The notes beneath the pieces were generated by a model. That model searched no databases. It worked only from the letters and a program-made list of their open reading frames with translations, and was not told where the DNA came from. A program made the translations under genes and the position numbers. A DNA stretch of 64,000 nucleotides from an uncultured Collinsella sp. (GTDB lineage Bacteria > Actinomycetota > Coriobacteriia > Coriobacteriales > Coriobacteriaceae), in assembly GCA_949285915.1 (NCBI GenBank), contig CASDZW010000012.1:1-64000 (forward strand), in the 5' to 3' direction. The number at the start of each line of letters is the position of its first letter. Within the stretch, counting starts at the first letter, position 1. Below, one piece after another: positions 25,933-30,469 of the stretch.

Positions 25933-27006
25933 GTGAACATCCGAGCATCACAGTGCGCCAGCGCATCGATCGTGCTCGCCGTCCGTGACGGCGAGGCGAC
26001 GCTTACGCGCGCACTCGAGAGCGTGCTCGGCCAGGCCTTCGACCGCGTCCAGCTGGTCGCCGTCGTTATGCCCTCCCGCGACCGTTCGCTCGCCATTTGC
26101 GAACGCGAGGCGGAGCGCAACATCCGCCTTGATGTAATCGAGACCGATACCTGTGACGTTTTCGCTGCCTTTGATGAGGGAATTGCCGCCGCACGCGGTG
26201 ATTACGTTTTGCTCATGCGCCAGGACGACTGGCTTGCCCCACGCGCCCTTGAGCTCATGCTCTCTGCAATCGATGGGGACGGGTGCGATCTTGTGCTGCC
26301 CACGCGCGCGTTTGAGAGCTTTGGGCCTCGTGGCGAGCGCTTGAGTCGGACGCGGCGCGTGCCCGAGGTTTCCGTGCAGTCTGCCGAAGCGTTTCATGCC
26401 GCAGCCGCCCCGCTGATCGAGTGCGGAGCCCTTGACGATGTGACCGGTAGGCTCCTCAATCGCTCCCGTATCGCCGAGCTCGGGCTCCGCTTAGCGTTCA
26501 AGAAAGACGAGACGGATTTCATGGCGTCCTATCTGGAGGGCGCGGAGCGCATCGCGGCGCTTCCCGGGGCGCTCTATCACGCCGGGTGGGCGCGCATTGC
26601 CGGTGCCCTCGCCGACCAGGACATCTTTGCGCGCTGTGAGCTCGACCGCAGCGTTTTGCAGGATATGGCAGCGCACTGGGGCATGGCGGACGATGACGAG
26701 CTTGCCTCTGCGATTGAGCGGGTTCACCTGCATAGGGTCATCGCCTGCATCCATGAGGTCTGCGAGCGCAAGAGCATCTCGTCCATCGAGCGGACGGCCC
26801 GCGTGCGCGATATGGTTGAGGCGGCAAGCACCCGCGAGGCGGTGCGCTCGGTCGTCGCACACCCAGAGACTAAGCGCGACTTTGGCATCATGCTTGCGCC
26901 TATCGAGCACCGCAACGTGCTCGCATGCTGCCTCTCTGCGCGCTTCTCGCACCTGGTGGGCTTGGCGCCCGCTCTTCCGCCGCGAAGCGATACGGCTGTG
27001 GCGTAA
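25933..27006 (+). CDS. Family 2 glycosyltransferase
   Basis: 357 residues, GTG start following GGGAGG. The N-terminal GT-A domain shows SIVLAVRDGEATLTRALESV, AAFDEGIAAARGDYVLLMRQ and the acidic DDW that stands for the metal-binding DXD. The C-terminal 150 residues are helical and not recognised. Such enzymes transfer sugars from nucleotide donors to surface glycans; donor and acceptor are unknown. It is a single gene with no polysaccharide cluster around it. Confidence 0.75.
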   Translation: MNIRASQCASASIVLAVRDGEATLTRALESVLGQAFDRVQLVAVVMPSRDRSLAICEREAERNIRLDVIETDTCDVFAAFDEGIAAARGDYVLLMRQDDWLAPRALELMLSAIDGDGCDLVLPTRAFESFGPRGERLSRTRRVPEVSVQSAEAFHAAAAPLIECGALDDVTGRLLNRSRIAELGLRLAFKKDETDFMASYLEGAERIAALPGALYHAGWARIAGALADQDIFARCELDRSVLQDMAAHWGMADDDELASAIERVHLHRVIACIHEVCERKSISSIERTARVRDMVEAASTREAVRSVVAHPETKRDFGIMLAPIEHRNVLACCLSARFSHLVGLAPALPPRSDTAVA

Positions 27007-27129
27007 ACCTCTGCCCACCTGCATGCCGTCCTGTCCCCCTGCCGTATGTGGGGAGGGGGGAGCGCGTTCTGCCGAGCGGCGGTGCGGACGGCCGTAAATC
27101 ATTCCAAAACGGTGAATTATTCACTCCTG

Positions 27130-27180
27130 TGTGATAAAGTGCCCAAACTATGCATAATAGTAGGGGTAATTTGCATACAC
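27130..27180 (+). promoter_or_regulatory. Candidate ArgR operator upstream of argR
   Basis: GCATA occurs at 27152-27156 and 27173-27177, 21 bp apart or two helical turns, within TATGCATAATAG and TTTGCATACA. TGCATA-type half-sites are typical of actinobacterial ARG boxes. A separate 13-bp palindrome GTGAATTATTCAC (27112-27124) lies just upstream. This suggests autoregulation. Confidence 0.45.
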
Positions 27181-27195
27181 ACCGGAGGTTGCGCT

Positions 27196-27633
27196 ATGGC
27201 AAGGAAACGCAACGGCCGACAGGAGGCCATTCGCGAGATCGTGCGAGCCGGAGGCGTGCGCACGCAGCGTACGCTTGTAGAGGAGTTGAGGGGCCGCGGC
27301 TTTGATTGCACGCAGGCCACCGTGTCGCGCGATATAGCCGATATGGGGCTGAAGAAGGTTCCCGAGGGCATCTACGCGCTTCCCGAGGACCTCTACCTCA
27401 AGCGGATGGTCACCGATATGGTGATTGAGATCGTGCGCACCGAGAAGCTCGTGCTCATCAAGGCGCAACCGGGTATGGCCTCGGGGATTGCCGCAGCGGT
27501 CGACGGGGCGGATCTTCCCGACGTGCTTGGGTCGATTGCGGGCGATGATACGATTCTTGTCATCGCTGCTTCCGACGAGGGCGGTGCACGCCTGGAGGCG
27601 CTACTCAAGCGCATCTGCGGTATCGAGGAATAG
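27196..27633 (+). CDS. argR: Arginine repressor ArgR
   Basis: 145 residues, the usual ArgR size. The N-terminal winged helix holds TQATVSRDIADMGLKKVP, and the C-terminal oligomerisation and arginine-binding domain holds GSIAGDDTILVIA. It should repress arginine biosynthesis in the presence of arginine. The start at 27196 follows GGAGG. No arg biosynthetic genes are in the window, so it acts in trans, and probably on itself through the upstream boxes. Confidence 0.92.
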   Translation: MARKRNGRQEAIREIVRAGGVRTQRTLVEELRGRGFDCTQATVSRDIADMGLKKVPEGIYALPEDLYLKRMVTDMVIEIVRTEKLVLIKAQPGMASGIAAAVDGADLPDVLGSIAGDDTILVIAASDEGGARLEALLKRICGIEE

Positions 27634-27653
27634 GGAAGAAGAGGGGACCGACC

Positions 27654-27758
27654 ATGATCGCTGCGATGCACATCGCGCTCTTTGCGCTCGTGTTGCTGTT
27701 GCCGATTGCGCTTATCGCTCTGCTGGCGTACTACTACCTGCATACGCGCAAGCGCTAA
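27654..27758 (+). CDS. Small single-span membrane protein (34 residues)
   Basis: Starts MIAAMHIALFALVLLLPIAL and ends in the basic YYYLHTRKR. One hydrophobic helix covers residues 5-28, with a positively charged cytoplasmic tail. GAGGGGA precedes the ATG at 8 bases, and it follows argR by 20 bases, probably in the same transcript. No family is recognised. Confidence 0.55.
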   Translation: MIAAMHIALFALVLLLPIALIALLAYYYLHTRKR

Positions 27759-27797
27759 CAGTTTGTCCGTTTGCCGCGCCGTTGGGCAGCCCATTTG

Positions 27798-28009
27798 GTG
27801 CATTCGTAACGCCTCGTGTGCAACCAGCACACCCCATGTGCATCCATCACGCTTGGTGTGCATCTAGCACGGTTCATGTGCATCTGGCACGCTTCGCGTG
27901 CAACCAGCACGGCTTACCTGTCTTTTAGCGTGCCAAATGCACATGAAGTGTGCCGATTGCACACGGGGCGTGCGGATTGCACACGGAGTGTGACGGATGC
28001 ACACGCAGC
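27798..28009. repeat. 20-bp-period palindromic repeat array with inversion
   Basis: Six units with the core GTGCA-N3/4-GCAC begin at 27798, 27818, 27838, 27858, 27878 and 27898, exactly 20 bp apart; the first is degenerate. After a 12-base joint, four units in reverse-complement orientation (GTGCC-N3-GCAC type) begin at 27930, 27950, 27970 and 27990, again 20 bp apart. The halves are imperfect reverse complements, so the whole can fold as one long branched hairpin or bind a periodic protein. It is not a CRISPR array: the period is too short and the units are themselves palindromic. Confidence 0.85.
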
Positions 28010-28157
28010 TCTAGGGATGTGCCTTCGAAGGATCAGAGCGGATGACTTTCGGGGCCGAACACGACTGAGTCAAGGCTGCGGCCGGGGTATGCATTGAGAT
28101 TGTTATGCAGTTGCTGCACGAACAAGCGCTACATGAATTCGCTGCATGAATTGATGC
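28010..28157. other. Non-coding stretch after the repeat array
   Basis: No credible gene or clear signal is seen. It contains short repeats of TGCATGAA/GATGCA type near 28135-28157 but nothing interpretable. Confidence 0.4.
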
Positions 28158-28189
28158 AAAAAAGGACCCGGAGTGACCGGGTCCTTTTT
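28158..28189. terminator. Bidirectional intrinsic terminator
   Basis: GGACCCGG (28164-28171) pairs with CCGGGTCC (28177-28184), with an A-run on the left and a T-run on the right. It ends the penicillin-binding protein transcript on the minus strand and could stop + strand transcription from the argR side. Confidence 0.85.
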
Positions 28190-28228
28190 GCGTTCTGGAT
28201 GCTAAAAACGGCGGCGCTGCGGTGCAGC

Positions 28229-30469
28229 TTACGATTGAGATTCCCCTTCCGGTGTGGGCTCCGGTTGAGGATCGGGCGTCGGTGTCGTCTCAGGCTTCTC
28301 CGGTTCCGGGTCAGGCTCAGGGTCAGGCGTCGGGGTTGGCGTGGGCTCGGGTTCCGGCTCCGGCGTAGGCGTGGTCGGGCTGGTGGGCGAGCTCGGGGTC
28401 GTCGGGGGCTGCTCGGGCGAAGCCGGCGACTCAGCGGATTCGGGGGACTCTGCAGACTCCGCCGGAGACTCGCTCTGCTGTGTCGTCGTGGCGCTCGAGC
28501 GCATGCCTACGAGCGACTTGCCCTCGCACTTCCACACAGAGTCATCCTTGTAGTTGATCTGCTGGTCGGTCGTGGGGAACTCGGCACGGGGCACGCCCTC
28601 AAGAATGGCGTTCAGGGTGTTGCGCGCCATCGGCAGCGTAAAGTCGTTGCCCAGCGCCTCGCGTCCGCCAACATAAATGGGGATGGAGCCCGAGGAGTAA
28701 CCGGTCCAAACGGCGATGGCGTACTGCGGGGTGTAGCCGCAGAACCACAGGTCGGCCGTGTCGGAGGTGGTGCCCGTCTTGCCGGCGAGCGGCTGGTTGA
28801 CCGAGAGGCGCGCCGCGGTACCGGTGGCGCCGCTGTGGTTGATAACACCCTCGAGGACCTCGGTAAGGACCTGCGTCACGCTGGTGTCGAGCACCTGCTC
28901 GGGCGCATCCTGATGCTCGTAGACAACCTCGCCGTCACGGTTCTCGATCTTGGTGATGGCAACGGCGTCGCGGTGATAGCCGCCCGTGGCAAAGGTGGAG
29001 TAGGCCTCGGCCATCTCGAGCGTGGAGATGCTGGTGACGCCGAGCGTGAGCGTGGGGACGTCTTCCATGTCCGCGGTGATACCGAGGTCCTGCGCGGTGG
29101 CGATGATGTTCTGGTTGCCCACGGCCTTGGCGACCTGCACGTAGCCCGTGTTGGACGAGAGCTCGGTGGCGCGGGCGAGCGTGATGGTGCCGTAGCTCGA
29201 GTTGCCGTAGTTCTGCACGTTGTGTGGCTTGTCCAGACCCTCGGTAAGCGTGTAGGGCGAGTTGCAGTTGATGCGGATGTTGGGGTTCATGCCCTGCTTA
29301 AGGGCGGTCGCAAGCGTGAAGGTCTTGAACGAGGAACCCACCTGACGGCCGGTGATGGCGTGGTTGGTGTGATGCTCGTCGGCGTAGTAGTCCTTGCCGC
29401 CCACCATGGCGCGGATGTAGCCCGTGCCGTTCTCGATGATGGTCATGCCGGCCTCGAGGCCGTCGAGGTTGTAGCGGTTGAGCTGGTCGACGACCGCGGT
29501 CTCGGCAGCAGCCTGGATAGTGGGGTCGATGGTGGTATAGACGGTAAGGCCGCCAGAGAAGATGGCGTCGTAGCTGAACTCCTCGTTCAAGAGGGAGCGC
29601 ACATAGTCGACAAAGTAGGGCTGGCCCAGGACCTCGACGCCGGTGGAGGAGTTCTCGGTCACGTTGAGCGCAATGGGCTCGGCTTGAGCAGCGTCGTGCT
29701 CCTCCTGGGAGATCTTGCCGTTGGAGAGCATGCGGTCGAGAACCGTGTTGCGGCGCTGGAGGGCGAGGTCGGGGTTGACGGTGGGGTCGTAGCGCGACGG
29801 CGAGTTGGGCAGACCCACGAGCAGCGCCGCCTCGGCGAGCGTGAGGTCGCTGGCGTTCTTGGAGAAGTAGGTCTCCGAAGCCGCCTGGATACCGTAGGCG
29901 CCGTGGCCAAAGTAGATGGTGTTGAGGTACATCATGAGGATCTCTTCTTTAGAGTAGATCTCCTCCATCTTGATGGCGATGTATGCCTCGCGGACCTTGC
30001 GCTCGAGCGTGTCGTCAAACTGCTCGTCGGAGAGAATCGTGTTGCGCACGAGCTGCTGCGTGATGGTGGAGGCGCCCTCGTGGCCGCCGGTGAGCTGCAC
30101 CACCACGGCGCGCATGATGCCGTAGAGGTCGACGCCGTTGTGCTCGTAGAAGCGCTCGTCCTCGGTGGCCACGGTGCCGTCGAGCACGTACTGGGACACC
30201 TGGTCGATGTTCACCGAGGTGCGGTTCTGCGCGTAGAGGCTCGCGATCGTGTTGCCCTGGGCGTCGAGAATCGTCGTCGGCTCGCTCGTGAGATACAGGT
30301 CGGTGTTGGTGTAGTCGGGCAGGTCCTCCAGCCAGCGACTCACGTTGCCGAGCATGCCGATGCCAAAGGCGATGCCTGCGATAAGCAGAAAACCGATGAA
30401 CGAAGCCACGATGGCAGGAACGAGATGCGTCCTGGCGTTCGTTCGTATATGACGCTCACGTGGACCCAT
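28229..30469 (-). CDS. Class A penicillin-binding protein (bifunctional)
   Basis: 746 residues; builds peptidoglycan outside the membrane. A short cytoplasmic N-terminus is followed by a membrane helix (17-40). The GT51 transglycosylase domain has EDERFYEH (catalytic Glu103), GASTITQQLVRN and NTIYFGHGAYGI. The transpeptidase domain has SSFK (Ser near 379), SSN and KTGTT. The usual RQPGSSFKP is here RQVGSSFKT, two prolines replaced. The last 90 residues are Pro/Glu/Thr/Ser repeats, likely spanning the wall. AGGAGG lies before the ATG. Confidence 0.93.
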   Translation of the reverse strand: MGPRERHIRTNARTHLVPAIVASFIGFLLIAGIAFGIGMLGNVSRWLEDLPDYTNTDLYLTSEPTTILDAQGNTIASLYAQNRTSVNIDQVSQYVLDGTVATEDERFYEHNGVDLYGIMRAVVVQLTGGHEGASTITQQLVRNTILSDEQFDDTLERKVREAYIAIKMEEIYSKEEILMMYLNTIYFGHGAYGIQAASETYFSKNASDLTLAEAALLVGLPNSPSRYDPTVNPDLALQRRNTVLDRMLSNGKISQEEHDAAQAEPIALNVTENSSTGVEVLGQPYFVDYVRSLLNEEFSYDAIFSGGLTVYTTIDPTIQAAAETAVVDQLNRYNLDGLEAGMTIIENGTGYIRAMVGGKDYYADEHHTNHAITGRQVGSSFKTFTLATALKQGMNPNIRINCNSPYTLTEGLDKPHNVQNYGNSSYGTITLARATELSSNTGYVQVAKAVGNQNIIATAQDLGITADMEDVPTLTLGVTSISTLEMAEAYSTFATGGYHRDAVAITKIENRDGEVVYEHQDAPEQVLDTSVTQVLTEVLEGVINHSGATGTAARLSVNQPLAGKTGTTSDTADLWFCGYTPQYAIAVWTGYSSGSIPIYVGGREALGNDFTLPMARNTLNAILEGVPRAEFPTTDQQINYKDDSVWKCEGKSLVGMRSSATTTQQSESPAESAESPESAESPASPEQPPTTPSSPTSPTTPTPEPEPEPTPTPTPDPEPDPEPEKPETTPTPDPQPEPTPEGESQS

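Follow-up and report, generated by a model that had tools for sequence, protein, structure and literature searches.

The array at positions 27796-28004 of the window (the whole 64,000-nucleotide stretch of Collinsella DNA analysed here) is one copy of a small, clade-restricted, BIME-like family of dispersed intergenic elements. This family is new: a literature search on repeats of Collinsella and Coriobacteriia and on 20-bp inverted arrays, whose coverage excluded most subscription journals, returned no description of such arrays. Decades of work on the intergenic palindromic repeats of enterobacteria and pseudomonads have left their function in dispute. The present family adds an unrelated case from a gut actinobacterium, built on a far more regular lattice. 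It combines constrained letters that resemble protein contacts, no detected constraint on arm pairing and a favoured IS3 target, in arrays that are few in number, well delimited and absent from individual loci of sister species.

Anatomy of the array in the window

The array consists of six forward and four inverted 20-bp units that converge on a 19-bp centre (Table 1). An earlier note, made from the sequence of the window, had described ten units at 20-bp steps, six one way and four reversed, and the coordinates bear this out. Its regular 20-bp period holds inside each arm and breaks between the arms, as the start of the last forward unit and that of the first inverted unit lie 32 bp apart around the centre, which places the two arms off a common 20-bp lattice. 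At the left edge, the unit at 27798 (GTGCATTCGTAAC) is degenerate. We found nine matches to GTGCANNNNKCACR in the 64-kb window, all of them within the array; 100 dinucleotide shuffles averaged 0.92 matches and never exceeded 4. A 33-bp pattern that pairs two GTG-N7-CAC units at 20-bp spacing has seven matches in the window and zero in all 100 shuffles. The arrangement is thus too regular for chance, as had been claimed. The spacing of the patterns implies that GTG and CAC alternate every 10 bp, or one helical turn, within each arm, so that the proposed placement of the sites on one helix face holds in a stricter form than first stated, with a half-site at every turn.

Table 1. Features of the array and its surroundings in the window
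Feature	Positions	Strand	Basis
argR (arginine repressor), left neighbour	27196..27633	+	Pfam PF01316 and PF02863
34-aa hydrophobic ORF between argR and array	27654..27758	+	
Left arm, six 20-bp units, outermost degenerate	27796..27910	+	pattern and shuffle counts
GTGC starts of the left arm	27798, 27818, 27838, 27858, 27878, 27898		
Centre, 19 bp, GGCTTACCTGTCTTTTAGC	27911..27929	.	unit parsing
Right arm, four units, opposite orientation	27930..28004	-	pattern and shuffle counts
GTG starts of the right arm, read on the + strand	27930, 27950, 27970, 27990		
Perfect 13-bp inverted repeat, A/T runs at flanks, putative PBP-gene terminator	28159..28189	-	terminator role predicted
Penicillin-binding protein (PBP) gene, right neighbour, convergent with argR	28229..30469	-	Pfam PF00912 and PF00905

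The earlier note's placement of the array between argR, here followed by the 34-aa ORF, and the PBP terminator is correct, and the inverted repeat beyond the array is likely to be that terminator. Homologues of argR are present in 39 of 40 genomes, and the gene is not specifically tied to the array. The hydrophobic ORF recurs downstream of argR in relatives from the genus and the family; it had zero matches in NCBIfam. The note's further statement that no gene explains the array also held, as the array is non-coding and every frame is broken by stops somewhere in the ten arrays of the family that we tested. A coding repeat is rejected on the same grounds and because the gain or loss of a 20-bp unit shifts the frame. 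In other species the gap between argR and the PBP gene has other contents: G009 (L090) has three copies of another, TAGTTGYTRGACT-type repeat there, and in G012 (L092) a long palindrome surrounds the terminator.

A clade-restricted family and its turnover

The earlier note had called for a search of relatives, and the consensus unit was found in two genomes besides the window's own (G000): an uncultured Collinsella bin (CASELS; G002) and Collinsella sp. An307 (G003). BLASTN of the array against 60 genomes, its own and relatives, matched these three. A three-unit profile, built from sequence alone and used for genome surveys, detects arrays in 3 of 11 genomes and in 3 of 65 across the whole family; it found none in the other 62 family genomes. 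The two-unit pattern matched 15 stretches in a search of 84,980 species genomes, nine in An307, four in the CASELS bin and one each in a Spirochaetales and an Eisenbacteria bin. The last two (L037:50-160 and L042:3120-3190) are short look-alikes in which GTGC..CAC words recur at close to 20 bp, through either chance or convergence. A phage or plasmid origin is rejected, as 50,697 phage and 72,556 plasmid records gave zero matches. One IMG/VR contig (L233:280-352) has GTGCAAAATGCAC palindromes, including a pair at 20-bp spacing, and these are perhaps phage operators.

Array loci number five in the window's genome, five in the CASELS bin and nine in An307, and nine of them are distinct. Those of the window's genome are argR-PBP, kinase-AraC, feoB, a histidine-kinase locus and aroQ-pnp, where argR and PBP are named from Pfam and flanking genes outside the window from their translations. 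By this gene reading six of the nine loci lie between convergent genes, three between co-directional genes and none between divergent genes, an excess of convergent pairs with P=0.01 if a background of 25% is assumed. Outside the arrays the motif is nearly absent (3 of 35 matches in the window's genome, 2 of 51 in An307, and 6 of 30 plus one remnant in the CASELS bin, with 1, 6 and 1 matches, respectively, for a backwards-motif control), which is unlike the site of an ordinary scattered regulon.

We parsed 13 arrays and, requiring a match to 7 or more of the 9 core letters, kept 109 units and dropped 30 of 139 candidate slots; degenerate arrays (aroQ-pnp and the collapsed feoB copies) and the IS-split C3/C6 array stand outside this set. 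The units give the consensus RYGTGCAWYYNKCACRSYYY, in which the half-sites GTGC(A) and (K)CAC form an imperfect inverted pair at a distance of 10 bp, and the next half-site stands another 10 bp on. Under an acceptance threshold that inflates core conservation, GTG is present at positions 3-5 in 105 of the 109 units and CAC at positions 13-15 in 91 (it is missing from 18), and 88 units have both. The arms converge in all 13 arrays. The centre measures 19 bp in 12 of them and 18 bp in the remaining one, and in a by-eye reading its consensus is recognisable, near GSAAAAAGCCCYWTAAAGC. A single 18-bp step between units occurs in one array of the CASELS bin (C15).

The comparison of unit number between relatives, also proposed in the earlier note, revealed that orthologous loci differ in unit count, and whole copies differ as well. 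The argR copy is absent from the CASELS bin, though its ArgR is 99% identical, and the ABC-asp23 copy is absent from the window's genome. The feoB copy is full in the window's genome and collapsed in the other two. The recF-gyrB copy is found only in An307; a single chimeric unit is left in the CASELS bin and none in the window's genome, and the lost stretch takes in flanking DNA. Units are gained and lost via recombination among units, and the loss of copies from sister species means that none of them is essential by itself. The dedicated recombination site that had been suggested was not seen; what recombines is the units with one another, and the insertions that the arrays receive are those of an IS3-family element.

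Against this turnover, the core letters of the unit are under constraint while the loop and linker letters drift. In 32 orthologous unit pairs, matched by eye, changes fall on 5 of 288 core positions and on 27 of 352 other positions (Fisher P=4.4e-4). Units within an array agree at 6.49 and 6.56 of 13 variable positions, against 6.55 between loci; they are no more alike within an array than between loci, so recent tandem copying does not explain the shared core, and homogenisation by tandem slippage is rejected. The linker letters, mostly near the centre, are positionally homologous between loci (0 of 500 permutations), and the corresponding result for the loop letters is not significant (P=0.10).

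The arrays are a preferred landing site of the IS3-family element. Seven copies of one IS break the An307 assembly and leave 14 ends, six of which lie within arrays and pair into three insertions with 3-bp duplications (GGG, AAG and GAT), two of the three at the identical unit position (NNG^CGTGC). If intergenic DNA makes up 12% of the genome and arrays occupy 1.8 kb, as assumed for this estimate, the chance of three in seven insertions falling in arrays is P about 2e-8 genome-wide and about 1e-5 within intergenic DNA. The remaining four insertions lie outside arrays, some beside other palindromes; at L065 and L060 the neighbours of the IS are inverted repeats, long or short, that bear no relation to the array. 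In the window's genome both IS ends found sit in the degenerate aroQ-pnp array, where a matching duplication is absent. The An307 copies are cut off at contig ends, and the assignment to IS3 comes from a relative of the IS in G001 that encodes an IS3-family transposase (NF033516, 229 bits against a cut-off of 160; Pfam HTH_21 and rve). In G007 and G005, ends of related ISs are found within or next to palindromic repeats of other kinds. According to the passages of PMC1525189 that deal with them, IS1397 and ISKpn1, members of the IS3 family, target the REP repeats of enterobacteria for insertion. The Collinsella element resembles these two in its IS3-family transposase, its 3-bp duplications and its insertion into palindromic intergenic repeats, and differs from them in that it also lands outside arrays, as four of the seven An307 insertions do.

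Candidate functions and rival explanations

The word and the spacing of the units are conserved and no constraint on arm pairing is detected, a combination that fits a sequence-reading dimeric protein better than a hairpin RNA. We infer a protein-lattice function in which a putative dimeric protein coats the array, one dimer per 20-bp unit, and acts at gene 3' ends, and we regard the chances of this reading as evenly balanced. A multi-site protein-binding or nucleoid-protein array was among the roles listed in the earlier note; it is the best-fitting of them, with the protein itself putative. A sequence-specific dimer would occupy each unit through half-sites one turn apart, and neighbouring dimers would extend one lattice into a continuous protein coat with all half-sites on one helix face. 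The inverted arms would give the complex a polarity towards a defined centre. The complex would probably work at gene 3' ends in the manner of BIMEs, by bending or bridging DNA, by blocking read-through or by absorbing supercoils, a role that we would prefer over that of a promoter operator. A bolder version, which we consider doubtful, makes the arrays chromosomal scaffold sites of a nucleoprotein filament peculiar to this clade, in which a dimeric protein polymerises inward from both sides to the fixed centre along half-sites one helical turn apart, tethering or insulating chosen intergenic points, and supposes that the recognised word is swapped between species. The swapped words would be GTGCA..KCAC at 20 bp and GTATACRCAA at 19 bp, the latter in G006 and G007 and both in An307.

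A long hairpin is a rival to protein coating that we judge unlikely. Here the arms would form an imperfect hairpin of ~90 bp in transcripts, or a cruciform, that protects mRNA 3' ends or ends transcription. The layout is inverted in every case, six of the nine loci lie between genes read as convergent, and both strands of the window array fold to about -138 kcal/mol, compared with -92 for dinucleotide shuffles (z about -9.3). However, the same energies are reached by arrays whose units are permuted inside the arms (mean z -0.09) or swapped in from other loci (mean z 0.03), each in 12 of the 13 parsed arrays, one shortened by an IS being left out. Any collection of these units in inverted arms would therefore yield the hairpin. 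Mirrored units match each other a little better than permuted ones do, at P=0.066 over all variable positions and at P=0.086, likewise not significant, in the loop. A hairpin, moreover, needs no common core in every unit, and some loci have separate intrinsic terminators. Arm pairing may have a weak role. The folding of both strands that the earlier note had called for thus lies far below shuffles yet gains nothing over permuted units, and its structured RNA, as an object of selection, is not supported. A search of positions 26900-28600 against Rfam gave mir-223 as the only match, at 20.6 bits and below the cut-off of 57.

We also think it improbable that the arrays are MITEs, with the 20-bp units as tandem transposase sites at both ends, as in Tn7 or Mu, and the 19-bp centre as a vestigial interior. 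Dispersed copies with a common centre, presence and absence differences between sister species and units that start TGTGCA are all consistent with such an origin, as is a second family in the genus with ~19-bp units inverted around a ~100-bp core. But the array borders lack a target-site duplication, and the loop letters lack positional homology between loci at P=0.10. The recF-gyrB difference, in which the flank is lost and one unit is left, is a collapse rather than a clean insertion. A clean empty site with a target-site duplication, as left by a MITE of a DDE transposon, was found at none of the three polymorphic loci compared, and the search for a parent transposon found none.

The chances are poorer still that the arrays are neutral debris, that is, functionless ancient tandem duplicates in slow decay. 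Copies do collapse and degenerate, as at the aroQ-pnp and feoB loci, and copy number per genome is low. Yet the core letters are kept while adjacent letters drift, the spacing is held at 20 bp, and the core persists among units that differ as much within an array as between loci.

Mobilisation of a REP/BIME-type element by the genome's single RAYT transposase is very improbable. The window's genome and the CASELS bin each have one RAYT-like Y1_Tnp gene, and of the three Y1_Tnp matches in An307 one is RAYT-like; in each genome the RAYT-like gene occupies the gpmI-secG position (L127, L124 and L134). However, the flanks of this gene bear TTTGGGGACGGG repeats and no array, with one isolated motif match about 1.2 kb off, and RAYTs with the TTTGGGGACGGG repeat are also present in G005 and G007, both of which lack arrays. 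An operator controlling argR, as the earlier note had suggested, or the PBP gene is hardly credible, since the array adjoins argR but lies 3' of both neighbours, eight further loci have the same arrays beside unrelated genes, and the CASELS bin lacks the argR copy.

Comparison with known repeats and centromeres

The arrays are like REP and BIME sequences in having units that appear to be short imperfect palindromes (perfect GTGC..GCAC in 66 of the 109 units) and in their extragenic position, chiefly downstream of genes or between convergent pairs; all nine loci are intergenic by the gene reading, and the ten arrays tested contain no continuously open frame. They also share with them the clustering with inverted partners, the restriction to a taxon and the use as an IS3-family insertion target (IS1397 and ISKpn1, in the same passages of PMC1525189). 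The differences are as clear. REP sequences usually number more than 100 per genome in the account of PMC2817692 that bears on copy number, compared with 30 to 51 motif matches at 5 to 9 loci per array-bearing genome in Collinsella. REP/BIME units alternate in orientation (PMC2817692, same account), whereas the Collinsella units stand head-to-tail in arms that converge on a fixed centre in 13 of 13 arrays. In tagged REP superfamilies one end bears an unpaired tag, GTAG or CGTC, as described in the relevant part of PMC3733652; counted on both strands, the window array holds GTAG 0 times and CGTC once. RAYT-linked REPs differ as well, the RAYT here being flanked by TTTGGGGACGGG repeats rather than by array units. 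Single units, unlike those of REP, are almost absent outside the Collinsella arrays. In view of the copy number, the lack of alternation, the tag and the RAYT flanks, we call the array an intergenic palindromic repeat cluster and not a REP.

Two systems with tandem sites of similar size provide further comparisons. Plasmid parC/ParR partition centromeres, for example that of pSK41, are made of contiguous ~20-bp sites on which a dimeric protein forms a filamentous coat. The Collinsella arrays share the contiguous ~20-bp sites, protein coating being only proposed for them, and differ in that they are multiple, chromosomal and losable, with convergent arms and no linked ParR or ParM. Ends of the Tn7 and Mu type carry tandem ~20-bp transposase sites, inverted at the two ends; the Collinsella arrays differ from these in having no border duplication, interior or transposase.

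A second array-like family came to light among the relatives. Its GTATACRCAA words follow a lattice of 19 bp (in An307, 17 or 19 bp) and are inverted around a core of ~100 bp. The pattern has 0 matches in the window's genome and in G005, one in G006 (L216), five in An307 (L217-L225) and nine in G007 (L222, L226, L227 and others).
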